Source of the DNA: Lachnospiraceae bacterium | GTDB taxonomy: Bacteria; Bacillota; Clostridia; Lachnospirales; Lachnospiraceae | Assembly (NCBI GenBank): GCA_024403485.1 | Contig: JAKSRT010000005.1 | Coordinates: 1-46,428 of the forward strand | Direction of reading: 5' to 3' | Length of the DNA: 46,428 bases | In this document: in pieces, positions 3,462-11,850 of the stretch | Layout of the letters: each line of letters opens with the position of its first letter | Numbering within the stretch: position 1 is the first letter of the stretch | Made by a program: the position numbers and the translations under genes | The notes under the pieces: generated by a model | The model's database searches: none | Seen by the model: the letters and a program-made list of their open reading frames with translations, nothing else | What the model was told of the DNA's origin: nothing

Positions 3462-6400
3462 ATGAAAGCAACCGTTGACCGCATTTTAGAAGGAAAATTT
3501 AATTACGATAAAGGCTTTTTGGAATTTTCCTGTCAGCGCCTTGAAATTAATGTTTCGGCGGGGGAAGTGTTCACAGGTTCCTTTGGCATTAAGTGTGCTC
3601 CCGGAAAACTTTCCGAAGGCTTTATTTCCACCGATGATGTTAGAATGCAGCTTCTTTCGGATTATTTCAGCGGTTCGGCTGATGAAATCGGATTTACTTT
3701 TTCTGCAAAGGGACTCAATGAAGGTGATGCGGTAAAGGGTGAAATATCCGTTATTTCCAACCAGGGTGAATATTACCTTCCTTATCTTGTAAATGTGTCG
3801 TATTCAACAATGGAGTCAAGTCTTGGAAGCATCAGAAATCTTTTTCATTTTGCAAATCTTGCAAAAATGAACTGGGACGAAGCGGTTAGTCTGTTTTACT
3901 CCGATGAATTTATTAACTTGTTTAAGGGAAATGACAAGCAGTATCTGAAGACATATATCGGATTGTCGGCTTACTACGGAAACGAACAGAATGTAGAAGA
4001 ATTCCTTTTACAGATTAATAAGAAGCAGCCTACCGAATATATTATTGAGCAGAAAGTAATTAATCTTGAAGATCCTCAATTTGTAGTTCAGGAATATATA
4101 GATATAACAAGAAACGGATGGGGATATACTTCTCTTTCTGTTGTTTGTGATGCTGATTTTATTACATTGTCTAAAGTAAATATCAGTGATTCGGATTTTC
4201 TTGGTAACTATCTTCATTATGATTTTCTGGTTGATCCGGCAAAATTTCATCAGGGAAATAATGTTGCGACCATTCGATTTTTTAACTCTTTTACGTCGTT
4301 TGAAGTTACCGTAAAGGTAACCTGCAATATAATGGAAAAGCCTGCAATTGCGAAGGGAATCGAATATTCCCGTGCAATGATGGATATTGTGACTTTTTAT
4401 AAGGCATTTCGCCTAAAGAAAATATCCGTAGATTCATGGATTGCGGAGACGGGAATTATAGTTGATCGCCTGTTATCAACAAGATCTGATGACAGAGTTG
4501 TTAAGATGCTGAAGACGCAGCTCTTAATTGTAGAGGAACGCTACAATGAAGCCAAGTGGATTCTTGACCAGGTTGAGGATACATTTGAGGAAGATGAAAC
4601 ATATTCCAGTCCTTTGTGGGCATATTATTTATATCTGACTTCGCTTGTGAATCGCGAAGAAATATATATTGACCATATAACCGAGGAGGTTGAGAGGATA
4701 TATAACCTTGACAATTCGCAGTGGAGAGTTGCATGGCTTCTTTTATATCTTTCGGCAGAATATGCGGTTAGCCCTGCAAAAAAGTGGTTGTTTATCGAGA
4801 ACCAGCTTAATTTAAACTGTATAAGCCCTGTAATGTTTGTGGAAGCTGCCAATATGTTTATGGTGGATTCCGCTTTACTCACAAAGCTTGAGAATACAGA
4901 GCTCAGAGTACTTAATTTTATGATTAAAGAGGGCATAATGACATGGGAAATAGCCCGACAGACAGTATATTTGGCTAGTTCCGGTAAATGGTTTTCGAAG
5001 CGACTTATTGAGATACTTAAGAAATGCTATGACATTTTGGGCGATGAAGAGTCTTTGACAACAATTTGTTCTTTACTTATAGCAAATAATAAATGTGGTT
5101 CCGAGTACTATCAGTGGTATAAGCTTGGCATTGAAGAAGAAGTCAGAGTCACCAATATATACGAGTACTATATGATGTCGCTTGATCTTTCGAGTGTAAT
5201 CGAATTGCCTAAAATGGTATATTTGTATTTTTCATATGAAAACGATTTAGATTGGGAACACTCGGCATATTTATACGCAAGAATCATTGAAAAGCGCGAA
5301 GAAATGGAAGCTGTATTTTTGTCATACAAAGATCAGATTGACCGCTTTACGATAAATCAGATAGCACAGGGACACATGAACAAAGACCTGGCGATTATAT
5401 ACCGCTTTGTTATTAACGAAAATATTATTTCAAAGGATATGGCCAGAAAACTGGTGCCGCTCATTTTTACACACCGCATCAGTATTAACTCGGATTTGCC
5501 TTCTAAGGTTATAGTATATCAAAGCAGGGAATGTGTTGCCGAAAGCTATCCGATAGTGGACAAAGAAGCGTATGTTCCTTTATATAACAAAGATTATTAT
5601 GTAATGTTTGAAGATAATTTCTCGAATCGTTACATTAAATCGATTGATTATGATATAGAAAAGCTTATAATCCCTGGAAAAATGGCGACGATGCTGTTTC
5701 CGTATGTCGAAGATAACCTTTCGTTTGATGTTTATGCAGTGGAAAGTTCCAGCGAAATGGTGGATATCACAAAGGAAAACAGAGGAAGATACCAGCACAT
5801 TTTAGACTCGTTTGAGATAGAAAATTCCTATAAGACTGAAATTCGAACAAAACTTATGGAATATTACTACGAGCACGATGAAATACGTGAATTGGATGGA
5901 ATTCTTGACAGCTTAAATCCTGATGAGATGGTGGCAAAAGAACGTCGAGCCTGCATAAGATTTATGATTATGCGCGGAATGTATGACAGAGCCTTTGAAT
6001 GGATTTGCGATTACGGTATCGAAGGAATGGAACCTAAAGATTTGGTGAGATTATGCTCGAATCTTTTGTCCAGAGGTGAGACCGAAGTCAATCCCAGATT
6101 AACTTCGATTTGCGCAGCATGCTTCTTTAAGGGAAAGTATGACGAGGAAATACTTAAATATCTTTGCACATACTATTTTGGTATGTCAAAGGATATGAAA
6201 AAACTGTTTAATGCTGCTTCGAACTTTGAAATAGAGATGTATGGAATGTGTGAAAATATTCTGGTGCAGACGCTGTTTACCGGATATTACATTTCAGAAC
6301 GTATGAATATATACAGAAGATATATTCAGGGAGGCGCTTCAAGCCGCATTCAGATGGCATTCCTGGCTCAATGCTGTTTTGACTATTTTGTTAAAGAACA

Positions 6401-7031
6401 ACTTACGGAAAGTTATGTTTTTGAAGAACTTACAAGGCTTAAGAGTCAGGGCGAAGAATTCCTAACGGTTCAGAAACTTGCGTATGTCAAATACTACTCC
6501 GAAAATCCGGAGGGAATCAATGATACGCAGAGAGAGTATATAAAAGTATTTCTTGATGAATTGATTTCTGAGGGAATATATCTTTCGTATTTTAAAGAGT
6601 TTATGGAGCAGGGAATGGAAGAGATTAACCGCTTCACCGACAAAACCTTTATTGAATATAAGACAGATCCCGGAAAGAAGGTTGTTATTCATTACATTAT
6701 TGAAAAAGAAAGTGGATCAGGCAGCGGTGAATATATAACAAGGGAAATGCCTGATATGTACGGTGGAGTTCATTCCATGGCTTTTGTACTTTTCTTTGGC
6801 GAGAATCTTCAGTATTACATTACGGAAGAACAGGGTGATGAAGAACAGCTCACTGAATCCGGAAATATTACCAAGAATGATATCGGAAGTGATATTACCA
6901 CAAGCAGATTCAGCGAAATAAATGACATAGTTATATCCAATACACTTGGAGACTATGAGACGCTTGAACATCTTGTTTATGAATACAGGCGCAAAGAATA
7001 CATGATTAATAAGTTATTTACTATGAAATAA
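3462..7031 (+). CDS. Giant uncharacterised protein, DUF5717-like
   Basis: A 1189-residue protein of unknown function. From memory it resembles the Lachnospiraceae family labelled DUF5717; this was not checked by search. Residues 1-120 look beta-rich (alternating hydrophobic strands, probably an Ig-like sandwich) and 205-290 look like a second beta domain. About 300-1060 is a long run of amphipathic helices rich in Tyr, Leu and Glu resembling TPR-like or other helical repeats. The last 125 residues again look beta-rich, with an acidic loop. No signal peptide or membrane helix is seen, so it is probably cytosolic and could act as a scaffold. It is the first gene of an operon with an Hsp70-like protein, a TPR protein and a coiled-coil membrane protein, which suggests one shared complex. 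Start chosen for its GGAG site. Confidence 0.85.
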   Translation: MKATVDRILEGKFNYDKGFLEFSCQRLEINVSAGEVFTGSFGIKCAPGKLSEGFISTDDVRMQLLSDYFSGSADEIGFTFSAKGLNEGDAVKGEISVISNQGEYYLPYLVNVSYSTMESSLGSIRNLFHFANLAKMNWDEAVSLFYSDEFINLFKGNDKQYLKTYIGLSAYYGNEQNVEEFLLQINKKQPTEYIIEQKVINLEDPQFVVQEYIDITRNGWGYTSLSVVCDADFITLSKVNISDSDFLGNYLHYDFLVDPAKFHQGNNVATIRFFNSFTSFEVTVKVTCNIMEKPAIAKGIEYSRAMMDIVTFYKAFRLKKISVDSWIAETGIIVDRLLSTRSDDRVVKMLKTQLLIVEERYNEAKWILDQVEDTFEEDETYSSPLWAYYLYLTSLVNREEIYIDHITEEVERIYNLDNSQWRVAWLLLYLSAEYAVSPAKKWLFIENQLNLNCISPVMFVEAANMFMVDSALLTKLENTELRVLNFMIKEGIMTWEIARQTVYLASSGKWFSKRLIEILKKCYDILGDEESLTTICSLLIANNKCGSEYYQWYKLGIEEEVRVTNIYEYYMMSLDLSSVIELPKMVYLYFSYENDLDWEHSAYLYARIIEKREEMEAVFLSYKDQIDRFTINQIAQGHMNKDLAIIYRFVINENIISKDMARKLVPLIFTHRISINSDLPSKVIVYQSRECVAESYPIVDKEAYVPLYNKDYYVMFEDNFSNRYIKSIDYDIEKLIIPGKMATMLFPYVEDNLSFDVYAVESSSEMVDITKENRGRYQHILDSFEIENSYKTEIRTKLMEYYYEHDEIRELDGILDSLNPDEMVAKERRACIRFMIMRGMYDRAFEWICDYGIEGMEPKDLVRLCSNLLSRGETEVNPRLTSICAACFFKGKYDEEILKYLCTYYFGMSKDMKKLFNAASNFEIEMYGMCENILVQTLFTGYYISERMNIYRRYIQGGASSRIQMAFLAQCCFDYFVKEQLTESYVFEELTRLKSQGEEFLTVQKLAYVKYYSENPEGINDTQREYIKVFLDELISEGIYLSYFKEFMEQGMEEINRFTDKTFIEYKTDPGKKVVIHYIIEKESGSGSGEYITREMPDMYGGVHSMAFVLFFGENLQYYITEEQGDEEQLTESGNITKNDIGSDITTSRFSEINDIVISNTLGDYETLEHLVYEYRRKEYMINKLFTMK

Positions 7032-7033
7032 GG

Positions 7034-7052
7034 GGCAAAGTTTTCTTTTGCC
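7034..7052 (+). promoter_or_regulatory. Small intercistronic hairpin before the Hsp70-like gene
   Basis: GGCAAA and TTTGCC pair around a seven-base loop immediately after the stop codon of the giant gene and before the ribosome site AGAGGA of the next. There is no U-run, so it is more likely an mRNA stability or processing element than a terminator. Confidence 0.35.
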
Positions 7053-7071
7053 TATAGAGGAACCGTAAACA

Positions 7072-8349
7072 ATGGCATCTGTTGAAACAGAACATAAAAA
7101 ACGAAATATTGAATATGCAGTGGGTCTGGACCTGACAGATGCTTTTTCTCAGGTCAGTGTGGGCCCGGTAGATTCCGAAGAGGTTGAAACCGTATCTACG
7201 GTTCCGGGTCAGACCAGTTACCTTGTACCTACCGCTTTATTTAAAAGAAGCGAAGTAAATCAGTGGTTTGCGGGTAATGAGGCTGTAAAGTACAAAGAAA
7301 CTGAAGGACATTTTGTTGATAAACTGGTATCCAAGGCTCGTCTCGGAGAAAATATTACCGTGGGCAGTGAGTCCTTTAGGCCCTCTGCTTTATTGGCTTT
7401 ATATTTGAAACGAATATTGGCATTGGTAAATTTGATCACACCCATGAATAATGTAACATCTTTGATGATTACCGTGGATGTATTGGATACTACATTGATT
7501 GATGTGCTTACTGAGGCAGTTAAATCTCTTGGTTTAAAAACAAAGGAAGTTCATTTCCAAAATCATATGGAAAGCTTTTATAATTATATGCTTTATCAGC
7601 CAAGAGAGCTTTGGAACCGGGATGCCATGCTCATTGACGGCACAGGTGAATACATAAAGAGTCTCAGAATGGAGTGCAACAAAAATACAACACCTATTGT
7701 GGCTGTTATTGACTCTACGGAGGAAATAAATCTTCCTATCGGCGACACCGGCGTTTCGGGATATGGTGCTGCTTTTAAAGGCTTTTCGGAAAAGATTGTT
7801 GAAGGCAGAATGATATCTTCCGTATATCTTATCGGCGATATTTTTAAGGGTGAATGGTGCAAAGAAGGAATCACCGCTCTTTGCAGAAAGGGCAGAGTAT
7901 TCCAGGGGAATAACTTGTTCTCAAAGGGTGCATGCTATGCCGCAAAGAATCTCATTCAGCCTAATTATATAAGTGAGGGGTATGTATTTCTTGGTAATGA
8001 CAAGCTTAAGGTTAATGTGGGCATTGAAGTCAAAAGAAGAGGAGAAGACGGTTATCAGGTGCTGCTAAACGGCGGTGTAAACTGGTTCGATGCTAAAGTA
8101 GAGTGCGATTTTATTCTTGATGAAGGCAATAAGCTTTTCCTGGTGGTCATTCCGCTTACCGGGAAACGGCATGAGTACAGGGAAATGACATTAAATTCTT
8201 TGCCCAAGAGACCGCCCAAAACCACCAGGCTCAGAGTCAGCATTGAAATGCAGTCTGAAAACAGAATGGCTGTGAATGTCAAGGATTTGGGATTCGGAGA
8301 GCTGTTTCCTGCGGAAAATATGGAATGGAATGAGGTGTTTAGCGTATGA
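7072..8349 (+). CDS. Diverged Hsp70-like protein, DUF5716-like
   Basis: A 425-residue protein I read as a distant Hsp70 relative. Residues 16-30 (YAVGLDLTDAFSQVSV) align with the phosphate-1 loop of DnaK (GIDLGTT...). Residues 186-199 (AMLIDGTGEYIKSL) occupy the phosphate-2 position but lack the canonical GGGT. Residues 249-292 include a VYLIGD segment and a KGACYAA segment, matching the DnaK C-lobe VLVGG...GAA pattern. Residues 300-410 resemble the Hsp70 beta substrate-binding domain, including a segment before IEMQSENRMAVNVKD that mirrors the IPPAPRG...FDIDANGIL region. The alpha lid is missing. ATP hydrolysis is therefore doubtful. The stop overlaps the next start (ATGA), implying translational coupling to the TPR gene. 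The DUF5716 name is recalled, not searched. Confidence 0.8.
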   Translation: MASVETEHKKRNIEYAVGLDLTDAFSQVSVGPVDSEEVETVSTVPGQTSYLVPTALFKRSEVNQWFAGNEAVKYKETEGHFVDKLVSKARLGENITVGSESFRPSALLALYLKRILALVNLITPMNNVTSLMITVDVLDTTLIDVLTEAVKSLGLKTKEVHFQNHMESFYNYMLYQPRELWNRDAMLIDGTGEYIKSLRMECNKNTTPIVAVIDSTEEINLPIGDTGVSGYGAAFKGFSEKIVEGRMISSVYLIGDIFKGEWCKEGITALCRKGRVFQGNNLFSKGACYAAKNLIQPNYISEGYVFLGNDKLKVNVGIEVKRRGEDGYQVLLNGGVNWFDAKVECDFILDEGNKLFLVVIPLTGKRHEYREMTLNSLPKRPPKTTRLRVSIEMQSENRMAVNVKDLGFGELFPAENMEWNEVFSV

Positions 8350-9215
8350 ACCGTGTACTGACAACTGTTGGTGACTACGCTGAGTCACCCTATTATGTAG
8401 ATAAAGTATTTGTTAATGTATATAGCGCCGAAGAACTTTGCTACGTTCTTTACGAAAATGCATTTATTCTGGACCAATCGATTTTGGATAAGAAACTGGC
8501 TCTTTGGGTAGACCGGGAACTTCATCTTCCCGATCTTGCCAGAGATTTGATTGTTCTTGCTAATCAAAATGCTTCTCCTTCGGCATTTGTAGGAACTATT
8601 CTCACATATGTCGGTTTTTATTCGAAAAATGAAATCAGCAGAGTGGAAAATATTCTTCGCATGAATGTTTCCATGAATGTATTTGAAAAGTGGAAAGCTA
8701 AGGCTGACTTTCTTGTGGAAAATAAGCATTATGCGCTGGCAATCAGGGAATATGAAAAACTCCTTAAGGTACTTCCGGAAGATGAGCAGGGACTGCTTTC
8801 TGCCATATATAACAATATGGGTATCACCTATATGAATCTTTCTCTCTTTGATTCGGCTGTTAAGTTTTTTTTGGCATCATTTGATGTGGATGGCAACGAG
8901 GATGCTTACAGGCACTATCTTACCGTTAAGAGAATGAGTCTTAGAGATGATGAATATGTAAGATTTATTGCATCAAGGGATGACGCATACAATCTTTCTA
9001 TTGAACTTGAAAGCAGAATGGAGGAGCTTAATCAAGGCTTCGACAAGAGCGATGAGGCACAGGCACTCAATGAACTTTTTGCATTAAGATCAACAGGTGA
9101 GAGTGCCAAGTACTATGAAGAGATAGGCAAGATAACCGAAGAACTTAAGGAAGACTACAGAGATATTGTATTAGATTCCGGTCAGAGTGAGAGCTTTACG
9201 GAGACTTTTAACTAA
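8346..9215 (+). CDS. TPR-containing partner protein
   Basis: A 289-residue, mostly helical, apparently cytosolic protein. Residues about 115-185 hold two recognisable tetratricopeptide units (KWKAKADFLVENKHYALAIREYEKLLKVLP and YNNMGITYMNLSLFDSAVKFFLASFDVD, abbreviated to the consensus A, Y, A and P positions). The N-terminal 110 residues are helical without a known motif, and the acidic C-terminus looks flexible. TPR domains often bind Hsp70 or Hsp90 or assemble complexes. The gene overlaps the Hsp70-like gene upstream by four bases and the next gene by one, so the products are probably made in fixed proportion. A co-chaperone role is inference from this context; no enzyme motif is visible. 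Confidence 0.8.
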   Translation: MNRVLTTVGDYAESPYYVDKVFVNVYSAEELCYVLYENAFILDQSILDKKLALWVDRELHLPDLARDLIVLANQNASPSAFVGTILTYVGFYSKNEISRVENILRMNVSMNVFEKWKAKADFLVENKHYALAIREYEKLLKVLPEDEQGLLSAIYNNMGITYMNLSLFDSAVKFFLASFDVDGNEDAYRHYLTVKRMSLRDDEYVRFIASRDDAYNLSIELESRMEELNQGFDKSDEAQALNELFALRSTGESAKYYEEIGKITEELKEDYRDIVLDSGQSESFTETFN

Positions 9216-10417
9216 TGGGATTTATTAAAAAGATATTTACCGGGAAAACTGAATATTCCGAAGAAGACTATTACGACTACGATCTTGAATATGAAGATCC
9301 CGACTGGGACAGATTGGCAGGAGACAGGCAGCCGCTTGAGCTGAATGATGTCAGTGTTTGTGAAACATATGTAAAGAACTGCCTTGAAACCATGAAAGGT
9401 GCATCCGACGAAATTGATCGTTTGAACAAAGAGTATGAGCAGGTTAATGATCAGCTTAAAGATCTTGAGGTAGTCAGCGAGTTACCGGAAATAGACCAAA
9501 GAGAACTGGCCGGAATAGCCAAAAGCATCAAGCAGCTTCGAGGAGACCACGATTCTTATGTGCTGAAAGAAAGCACAATGACAGACAGAGAATATAAGTT
9601 GGTGGAATCAATCGAAGATGATATTGTGGAAGCTATTAAAAAACTTGAAGAACAGGAAGACTACAAAAAGAAGATAAAAGCCGATCTTAAGCGAATTGAC
9701 AGAGAACGGCACGCATGTGACTACCGAAAAAAAGAATTGGAAATTAATCTTGATAATTCAAAAAGTGCTGCTTTAGTTGCAATTGGGGCAGCAGGATTTC
9801 TTTTTTTGATTCTTTTTCTTATGCAGGTAGGCTTAAAGCTTGATGTAGTCATAGGTTACTATATAACCATAGGCCTGGCAGCAATAGCATTAACGGCTAT
9901 TTATGTGAAATATGCCGATTTTTCATCAGAGAAAAGCCGGGTAAACAGTACGATTAATGAATTGATTCTTCTTGAAAATAAGGTTAAGATTCGATATGTC
10001 AACAACAAAAATCTGCTTGACTATTTATATATGAAGTATGATGTTGTGGATGCTTGGACACTTAAGGATCTTTATGCCCGCTTCGATGCAGAGCGAGAGG
10101 CTCGTTCCAAATTTGAAAAGAACGAGAAATATTATCAGGAAGAACTGGCTAAACTGGTAAGAACATTAAGAGCCTGCCATGTTATAGATCCGGAAGCCTG
10201 GGTCCACAGAATAGATGCGCTTCTTGATCAAAGAGAGATAGTTGAAGTTCGGCACAGTCTTATTCAAAGAAGGCAGAAGCTTAGAAAACAGATTGAATAT
10301 AATCAAAATCTGGCCAAGGAATCCGGGGATTCCATAAAGGCATTAATTGAAGAACGGCCAAGATTTAAAGATGATATATTAAAAATTATTAATTCATACG
10401 AAGGTGAGGAAGAATAA
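9215..10417 (+). CDS. Coiled-coil protein with two central membrane helices
   Basis: A 400-residue protein of unknown function. After an acidic, Tyr-rich start (13-30), residues 50-180 form a long charged coiled coil. Two hydrophobic helices follow (about 185-206 and 211-231) with a tight turn. Residues 233-395 are a second coiled coil. Both coiled coils therefore lie on the same, presumably cytoplasmic, side, and the protein makes a hairpin in the membrane. It overlaps both neighbours by one base (TAATG), placing it in one translational unit with the TPR protein and purB. It could anchor the Hsp70-like/TPR/giant-protein complex at the membrane; that is inference. No catalytic motif is recognised. 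Confidence 0.8.
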   Translation: MGFIKKIFTGKTEYSEEDYYDYDLEYEDPDWDRLAGDRQPLELNDVSVCETYVKNCLETMKGASDEIDRLNKEYEQVNDQLKDLEVVSELPEIDQRELAGIAKSIKQLRGDHDSYVLKESTMTDREYKLVESIEDDIVEAIKKLEEQEDYKKKIKADLKRIDRERHACDYRKKELEINLDNSKSAALVAIGAAGFLFLILFLMQVGLKLDVVIGYYITIGLAAIALTAIYVKYADFSSEKSRVNSTINELILLENKVKIRYVNNKNLLDYLYMKYDVVDAWTLKDLYARFDAEREARSKFEKNEKYYQEELAKLVRTLRACHVIDPEAWVHRIDALLDQREIVEVRHSLIQRRQKLRKQIEYNQNLAKESGDSIKALIEERPRFKDDILKIINSYEGEEE

Positions 10418-11850
10418 TGGCTACAGATGTTTACTCAAGTCCTTTATCGGAACGTTACGCCAGCAAGGAAATGCAGTACATTTTTTCACAGGATTTCAAG
10501 TTTAGAACCTGGAGAAAACTATGGATTGCCCTTGCTGAAACTGAAAAAGAATTAGGGCTCAATATTACCGATGAACAGATCGAAGAACTTAAGGCTCATG
10601 CCGACGATATCAATTATGATGTTGCAAAGGCAAGAGAAAAGGAAGTTCGCCATGACGTAATGAGCCATGTATATGCATATGGCGTTCTTTGCCCCAAGGC
10701 AAAGGGAATTATCCATCTTGGTGCGACAAGCTGTTATGTTGGTGATAATACAGATATTATTACAATGAACGAAGCTCTTAAGCTTGTTAAAAAGAAACTG
10801 GTAAATGTAATTGCAAAGCTTTCTGAGTTTGCGGATGCGAATAAAGCCATTCCTACTTTGGCATTTACACATTTTCAGCCGGCACAGCCTACTACCGTAG
10901 GTAAGAGAGCAACACTTTGGACTCAGGAATTTTTAATGGATCTTGAAGACCTTGAGTATGTTCTTTCCACATTAAAGCTTTTGGGATCTAAGGGAACCAC
11001 CGGTACTCAGGCCTCCTTCCTTGAACTTTTTGAAGGCGATACTGAAAAAATCGATCAGATTGATCCCATGATTGCAAAGAAAATGGGCTTTAGTGCATGT
11101 TATCCCGTATCCGGTCAGACCTATTCAAGAAAGGTCGATACCCGCGTTATGAATATTTTGGCAGGCATTGCAGCAAGTGCGCATAAGATGTCCAATGATA
11201 TTCGTCTTCTCCAGCATTTAAAAGAAGTAGAAGAACCCTTTGAAAAGAGCCAGATAGGTTCTTCTGCAATGGCTTATAAGCGTAATCCCATGAGAAGCGA
11301 AAGAATAGCTTCATTATCAAGATATGTGATGATTGATGCATTAAATCCGGCAATTACCAGTGCTACACAGTGGTTTGAAAGAACTCTTGATGATTCTGCA
11401 AATAAGAGAATCTCTATTCCGGAAGGTTTCCTTGCCATCGATGGAATTCTTGATCTTTGCTTAAATGTAGTTGACGGTCTTGTTGTATATCCTAAGGTTA
11501 TTAACAAGCGCCTTATGAGTGAGCTTCCTTTCATGGCTACAGAAAATATTATGATGGATGCTGTTAAGGCAGGCGGTGACCGCCAGGAACTTCATGAAAA
11601 AATCAGAACCCTTTCAATGGAAGCAGGAAAGAATGTTAAAGTTGAAGGCGGAGACAACAATCTGCTTGAACTTATTGCAGAAGATGATTCCTTTAATCTT
11701 ACTTATGAAGAACTTCTTGAAACTATGGATCCTTCAAAGTATACCGGCCGCGCTACACTTCAGACCGAAAGATTTATTAAAGATGTGGTTAAGCCTGTGC
11801 TTGATGCCAATAAGGAACTTCTTGGAGCTAAAGCCGAGATTAATGTATAA
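10417..11850 (+). CDS. purB: Adenylosuccinate lyase
   Basis: Fumarase/aspartase-superfamily lyase that releases fumarate from SAICAR and from adenylosuccinate, serving two steps of purine synthesis. The 477 residues contain GATSCYVGDN, THFQPAQPTT and the superfamily signature SSAMAYKRNPMRSE beginning near residue 282, whose mobile loop carries the catalytic serine. Length and motifs are normal for the homotetrameric cytosolic enzyme. The start codon overlaps the stop of the coiled-coil gene (TAATG), so purB seems to be translated from the same message as the four unknown genes. That is an odd partnership, because no other purine gene is nearby. Confidence 0.96.
   Translation: MATDVYSSPLSERYASKEMQYIFSQDFKFRTWRKLWIALAETEKELGLNITDEQIEELKAHADDINYDVAKAREKEVRHDVMSHVYAYGVLCPKAKGIIHLGATSCYVGDNTDIITMNEALKLVKKKLVNVIAKLSEFADANKAIPTLAFTHFQPAQPTTVGKRATLWTQEFLMDLEDLEYVLSTLKLLGSKGTTGTQASFLELFEGDTEKIDQIDPMIAKKMGFSACYPVSGQTYSRKVDTRVMNILAGIAASAHKMSNDIRLLQHLKEVEEPFEKSQIGSSAMAYKRNPMRSERIASLSRYVMIDALNPAITSATQWFERTLDDSANKRISIPEGFLAIDGILDLCLNVVDGLVVYPKVINKRLMSELPFMATENIMMDAVKAGGDRQELHEKIRTLSMEAGKNVKVEGGDNNLLELIAEDDSFNLTYEELLETMDPSKYTGRATLQTERFIKDVVKPVLDANKELLGAKAEINV

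Follow-up and report, generated by a model that had tools for sequence, protein, structure and literature searches.

What do four closely packed genes of the Lachnospiraceae do, and from what did they descend? The genes lie in a stretch of 46,428 nucleotides (assembly GCA_024403485.1, contig JAKSRT010000005.1), referred to here as the window, and encode (i) a giant DUF5717 protein, (ii) a DUF5716 protein that is a degenerate Hsp70, designated B, (iii) a tetratricopeptide repeat (TPR) protein, and (iv) a membrane coiled-coil protein, designated CCM. Nearly every sampled genome of the Lachnospiraceae, which are dominant among gut bacteria, encodes DUF5716 and DUF5717, but neither has been given a function. 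The new element reported here is a longer operon in other families of the same order, in which sequence profiles place orthologues of all four genes, in the same order, together with three motif-intact Hsp70s (A, C, and D) and a GrpE protein. On this comparison, the four genes very probably descend by reduction from a longer Hsp70 machine that is confined to the order. Whether the set acts as an ATP-independent, Hsp70-derived scaffold or holdase is judged about evenly balanced, while the explanation taken whole, a reduced Hsp70 machine descendant working as such a scaffold or holdase, is favored with reasonable rather than high confidence.

3462–7031, plus strand: DUF5717 giant protein, 1189 residues (Pfam DUF5717_N at residues 1–873, DUF5717 at residues 879–1186)
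7072–8349, plus strand: DUF5716 protein, the degenerate Hsp70 B, 425 residues (Pfam DUF5716_C, profile search against the PDB, motif and alignment analysis)
8346–9215, plus strand: TPR adaptor, 289 residues (conserved N-terminal domain, then TPRs)
9215–10417, plus strand: CCM, membrane coiled-coil hairpin, 400 residues (two transmembrane (TM) helices flanked by two helical arms)
9767–9823, plus strand: CCM TM helix 1, residues 185–203 (hydropathy)
9845–9901, plus strand: CCM TM helix 2, residues 211–229 (hydropathy)

The layout agrees with a preliminary description of this DNA, in which the four genes were read as tightly packed: all four open reading frames are on the plus strand, with a gap of 40 bases between the DUF5717 and DUF5716 genes, an ATGA overlap between the DUF5716 and TPR genes, and a TAATG overlap between the TPR and CCM genes. 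Pfam assigns the 1189-residue protein to DUF5717_N (E 1e-287) and DUF5717 (E 4e-95) and the 425-residue protein to DUF5716_C (E 2e-97), families to which no function is attached, and gives the 289-residue protein a TPR match (2e-5) that lies under its cut-off; CCM has no real Pfam match. Against PDB sequences, DUF5717 has no match, and CCM finds only TM or coiled-coil look-alikes with E values of 0.012 or worse. DUF5717 residues 97–185 resemble the N-terminal domain of the TPR protein very weakly (hhalign probability 4.9%), a likeness that is not used as support. No literature on this gene set was found among open-licence PMC papers, and it may be in print elsewhere; in the portion of PMC8115291 available here, DUF5716 or DUF5717 is named as a motif-search match in the protein max.

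The evidence for descent from a longer operon comes from 20 loci of other families of the order (L105–L124), chosen from 51 positive genomes with long contigs favored, and from 14 regions further downstream in such operons (L155–L168). In these loci, DUF5717 is mostly encoded by two genes (~400 and ~900 residues; 15 of 20), several of the ~900-residue halves showing weak TPR matches, and by one gene in L107, L121, L122, and L123, the last three with the N part reduced or undetected. Hsp70-A (~558 residues) follows in 19 of 20 loci. Neighbor clustering places a coiled-coil protein with a C-terminal GrpE domain, mostly ~565–645 residues long, in 17 of 20; the domain is recognized by Pfam with E values of 4e-7 and 5e-9 in two of these proteins and 5e-12 in the 279-residue form of L105. 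A B orthologue, mostly ~500–530 residues, is present in 16 of 20, and contig or stretch ends account for the gaps of L110, L112, and L120 in these counts. Beyond B lie Hsp70-C (~545 residues) in all 14 downstream regions and Hsp70-D (~690–725 residues) in 13 of 14, as two frames in L158; the C-terminus of D is a vWA domain in the single copy scanned. A TPR profile built from family sequences only matches at full length in 12 of the 14 regions (E 1e-23 to 3e-37), in two pieces in L158, and not at all in L168, while the CCM profile, likewise built from family sequences only, finds its counterpart in L158, L167, and L168 (E 1e-70 to 2e-40). Pieced together from several loci, the composite order is DUF5717N, DUF5717C, Hsp70-A, coiled-coil GrpE protein, B, Hsp70-C, Hsp70-D, TPR, and CCM. 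A different membrane or coiled-coil protein, whose cluster covers five order loci, lies 5′ of DUF5717N in two of them (L112:10450-11577 and L108:10828-12150) and has no informative Pfam match.

DUF5717 and the GrpE protein travel together outside the window's family. Among 105 such order genomes, both are present in 49, DUF5717 or the operon-type GrpE protein singly in two and one, respectively, and neither in 53, the GrpE protein being called at our own cut of E 1e-20. In 35 of the 49, the two genes share a contig and lie no more than about 12 kb apart. The machine appears restricted to the order: outside it, the profile of the long GrpE protein matches 44 of 298 phylum genomes through its C-terminal part only, in frames of 178–263 residues. 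Within the order sample, no long GrpE protein is found in any of the 11 genomes of the window's family. A search with Hsp70-C gives at least 29 loci of 64–94% identity from Clostridia-type or Bacillota assemblies among the 80 matches listed, in which the next best matches all have ≤35% identity (two short patterns).

Within the window's family, the set is reduced to a single Hsp70-like open reading frame per locus (60 of 60 loci: the window and 59 chosen from 245 positive genomes, long contigs again favored). In this family, the locus would have lost its motif-intact Hsp70s along with the GrpE protein of the operon. Because two deletions are simpler than two insertions, the four-gene form is read as a reduction. 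Genome G734 is an apparent intermediate, with a short GrpE protein, split D and TPR genes, and the B protein closest to that of the family. Its split frames (L158:11340-13384 and 10205-11231) and its short GrpE protein (L105:4514-5353) have the look of decay or of an assembly error.

The state of B itself provides the second line of evidence. The preliminary description called it Hsp70-like, and this likeness holds at the level of sequence: the window protein used as a single query retrieves no DnaK from the PDB, while a profile of 57 family sequences plus L105 gives DnaK for each of its top six PDB hits, with E values from 1.2e-7 to 6.5e-6. The motifs GxDxGTT and DxGGGT, present in A (14/14), C (14/14), D (11/11), and DnaK (9/9), are absent from B of both the order (0/16) and the family (0/58, the two proteins fused to TPR being left out). 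Scored separately, the phosphate-1, phosphate-2, and adenosine motifs occur in 48, 48, and 47 of the 48 A, C, D, and DnaK proteins, and each in none of the B proteins, whether of the order (16) or of the family (58). These shared losses are most simply explained if B was already degenerate when the locus lost its other Hsp70s.

B of the family has lost more than its motifs. The stretch corresponding to residues 191–260 of the DnaK L126, which we take to be most of subdomain IIB of the nucleotide-binding domain (NBD), has an occupancy of 0.00 in the 58 family B proteins and is mostly filled in the 16 order B proteins; the flanking motifs are a median of 61 residues apart in family B, compared with 133 in DnaK and 139 in order B. 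Family B thus lacks a complete four-subdomain NBD. Subdomain IIB is the part of Hsp70 that GrpE grips. Its absence in the same lineage that is without the operon GrpE suggests that the dedicated GrpE and the lobe disappeared together. The β-subdomain of the substrate-binding domain (SBD-beta) aligns through to its end in family B. No helical lid is alignable: occupancy drops past L126 residue 470, the few aligned residues beyond it resemble tail padding, and the B proteins end soon after. In a tree of 58 of the 122 Hsp70-like sequences, made by a quick method with 14 of the 58 family B proteins and two very long-branched B rows, family B forms one clade (SH-aLRT 99) beside B of G734, and a branch with a support of 100 separates A, C, D, and DnaK from B.

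Retention in the family is nearly complete. DUF5717 is found in 245 and DUF5716 in 244 of 250 family genomes; comparison of the two lists gives 242 genomes with both, three with neither, three with DUF5717 alone, and two with DUF5716 alone. The phylum sample of 299 genomes yields four positives for each protein, the same four, all from the window's family. The seven positives for DUF5717 among 196 class genomes comprise six of this family and one other under the cut-off, and its 62 among 116 order genomes comprise 11/11 from this family and 51/105 from other families. The genes for DUF5717, DUF5716, and TPR are present on one strand and in the same order in all 60 family loci. Gaps of at most 100 bases, measured from the first possible start and thus lower bounds, separate DUF5717 from DUF5716 in 60 of 60 and DUF5716 from TPR in 59 of 60, two fused loci included. 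Scattering of the genes among relatives, which the preliminary description named as the outcome that would speak against a system, is not what these family genomes display; its four-gene set does narrow to three constant members, with CCM, present in 25 of the 60 loci and there always within 100 bases of the TPR gene (25/25), as the variable fourth.

Two further observations tie the genes together. B and TPR are fused into a single open frame in 2 of 60 loci, L068 (713 residues) and L076 (709 residues), which suggests that their products cooperate. Purifying selection acts on all four genes: between the congeneric species G142 and G717, the ratio of nonsynonymous to synonymous substitution rates (dN/dS) is 0.022 for DUF5717, 0.020 for DUF5716, 0.034 for TPR, and 0.021 for CCM, values from our own NG86 script; the divergence to G806 is in part too saturated for this ratio. 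The near-universal retention extends to genomes in which no Spo0A was detected, and so speaks for a housekeeping role and not for sporulation or defence.

A role confined to sporulation was rejected, Spo0A_C being found in 78 of 115 family genomes and DUF5717 in 245 of 250; DUF5717 occurs in 19 of the 20 Spo0A-negative family genomes listed (of 37), a check that relies on one marker and includes some incomplete genomes. Anti-phage defence was also rejected as a role, as the four window proteins have no PADLOC match and the distribution is near-universal, not patchy.

How might such a set work? Tentatively, and with slightly less than even confidence, the family runs on what was a GrpE-driven multi-Hsp70 machine, stripped to a motif-dead Hsp70 whose GrpE-binding lobe went along with the GrpE and which strong selection has kept on a giant DUF5717 platform, where it serves as a scaffold or holdase that needs no ATP. 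In this scheme, B would have no ATP cycle and would act as a holdase or scaffold through its SBD-beta face, the TPR protein would bind B directly, and DUF5717 would form a solenoid platform. CCM, where present, may anchor the assembly on the inner face of the membrane, and the housekeeping DnaK may provide any ATP work. DnaK-type genes are present in all 11 family genomes searched, and the extra Hsp70s of G222, G389, G447, and G528, from the same family, are nearer to DnaK than to A, C, or D.

Several observations weigh against this reduced-scaffold interpretation. Neither DUF5717 nor DUF5716 is found in G327, G389, and G522, three of the 250 family genomes (89–98% complete), through either true loss or misplaced bins. 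At 35 of the 60 family loci there is no CCM gene, and only 3 of the 14 order regions have one. No single locus read has every one of the nine genes in intact form; all nine are found in G734, but with Hsp70-D and TPR split, and L124 (G815) has the N part of DUF5717 alone. In 14 of the 49 order genomes with DUF5717 and GrpE, the two genes do not adjoin (13 on different contigs, about 42 kb apart in G796), which indicates that some of the order has the machine in dispersed form; the order family f188 (e.g., G796 and G815/L124) accounts for 8 of the 14. The direction from long operon to four genes is inferred, the alternative being a four-gene set that grew by insertions. In G482, a 953-residue Hsp70-like frame is about equally close to C and DnaK (28–31%) and is unclassified. 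Weak hydrophobic segments also show up in six of the 60 B proteins and three of the 60 DUF5717 proteins. In the SBD-beta pocket of family B, four positions are hydrophobic (0.97–1.00) and those of A429 (0.02) and I472 (0.10) are not, which makes peptide binding by B uncertain; the pocket roles are those of the E. coli residues.

One alternative is an active chaperone in which B still has an altered mode of ATP binding, or assists the housekeeping DnaK as an exchange factor or as a partner of the Hsp110 kind, with TPR and DUF5717 as co-chaperones. The Hsp70 homology of B, its retained SBD-beta region, and the presence of DnaK-type genes in all family genomes searched are consistent with it, but none of the three motifs is found in any of the 58 family B proteins, the IIB stretch is gone, and the degeneracy is common to the order, where motif-intact Hsp70s adjoin B; this alternative is considered unlikely. 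B is a sequence homologue of DnaK, and the order operon has the motif-intact Hsp70s and GrpE domain of a DnaK–GrpE system, whereas family B is motif-dead, without the IIB stretch or an alignable lid, and its operon GrpE is gone. To our knowledge, DUF5717, the TPR protein, and CCM are not DnaK co-chaperones. Pfam finds no J domain (DnaJ) or fibronectin type III (FNIII) domain in the proteins scanned, other neighbors being outside the scan. Hsp110, Hip, and other Hsp70-derived helpers are Hsp70-family or TPR proteins that work without the normal folding cycle, and Hsp110 retains its nucleotide motifs; we know of no helper of this kind with a DUF5717 platform. The "dedicated chaperone machine" of the preliminary description is partly supported. 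The operon of the order relatives, with its motif-intact Hsp70s and GrpE, speaks for it; against it, B of the window has no ATPase motifs and so is not an ordinary Hsp70 engine, CCM is dispensable, and the Hsp90 neighbor is incidental.

Comparably improbable is a cell-envelope or cytoskeleton-like scaffold, in which an Hsp70/actin-like fold would act as a structural subunit with CCM as its membrane partner, by analogy with PilM, an actin-like structural subunit that serves PilN. Two TM helices are predicted in all 25 CCM proteins, Hsp70-C has a weak PilM_2 match (E 0.001), and Hsp70-D matches MreB (E 5e-17), though PilM and MreB matches are common for Hsp70s. CCM, however, has no genome-wide match in 34 of the 35 genomes that lack it at the locus and only a weak match in the other, and B keeps its SBD-beta region, which PilM, as far as we know, does without. 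A conflict or defence system is far less probable still. The GTPase-centered GAP1-N2 systems (Kaur et al. 2020, PMC7159879) are the model for it, and no published layout found comes closer than their Hsp70-GrpE theme, which, in the portion of that paper available here, shares Hsp70, GrpE, vWA, and TPR ingredients, including TPR fusions and, in a subset, a second Hsp70 without the peptide-binding domain. Weak matches link A, C, and D of the order to the PADLOC candidate PDC-M61B (E 1e-4 to 2e-8), and two PADLOC families match the TPR protein of the order (E 4e-6), but these matches could stem from general Hsp70 or TPR similarity. By comparison with the available portion of PMC7159879, the window set differs in having no recognized GTPase and no Pfam FNIII match in DUF5717, in being near-universal in one family, and in a B that keeps SBD-beta and has lost its ATPase motifs. 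No GTPase gene was recognized by eye in the 25 most widespread neighbor clusters of 80 loci, not all of which were Pfam-scanned. Least probable of all, to the point of being hardly credible, is that unrelated housekeeping genes simply stay together. Although housekeeping genes, purB among them, are frequent neighbors, and DUF5717 and GrpE are dispersed in part of the order, the flanks vary while the DUF5717, DUF5716, and TPR genes remain together in all 60 family loci, and the order-wide gene order with its extra Hsp70 genes and the B-TPR fusion are difficult to reconcile with chance neighbors.

Descent from an Hsp70-GrpE machine, if correct, gives DUF5716 and DUF5717 an ancestry and turns "unknown function" into concrete tests. 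The natural series of intact, intermediate, and stripped forms allows one to ask what an Hsp70 scaffold does after loss of its ATPase.

The surroundings of the set are less constant. In the window, htpG and degV lie upstream and purB downstream, the latter starting at 10417, the final base of the CCM gene. Hsp90 is indeed just upstream, as the preliminary description observed, but htpG was rejected as part of the system, being in the fetched neighborhood of only 3 of 80 clustered loci. PurB-like genes form a cluster found in 15 of the 80 neighborhoods. A heat-shock CIRCE operator upstream was rejected, the best site over the 60 family loci deviating at 6 of 18 positions; if two mismatches or fewer are allowed, sigma-A-like sites occur in 29 of 60 upstream regions, compared with 5.5 in ten mononucleotide shuffles, which is only suggestive. 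The idea that CCM is a relic of the GrpE protein was discarded because CCM-like genes sit further 3′ in GrpE-bearing operons. A CobD/HisC-like aminotransferase of ~365 residues clusters near the operon in 42 of the 80 loci (31 family, 11 order) and is divergently transcribed at L118:10912-12039 and L039:10734-11828.

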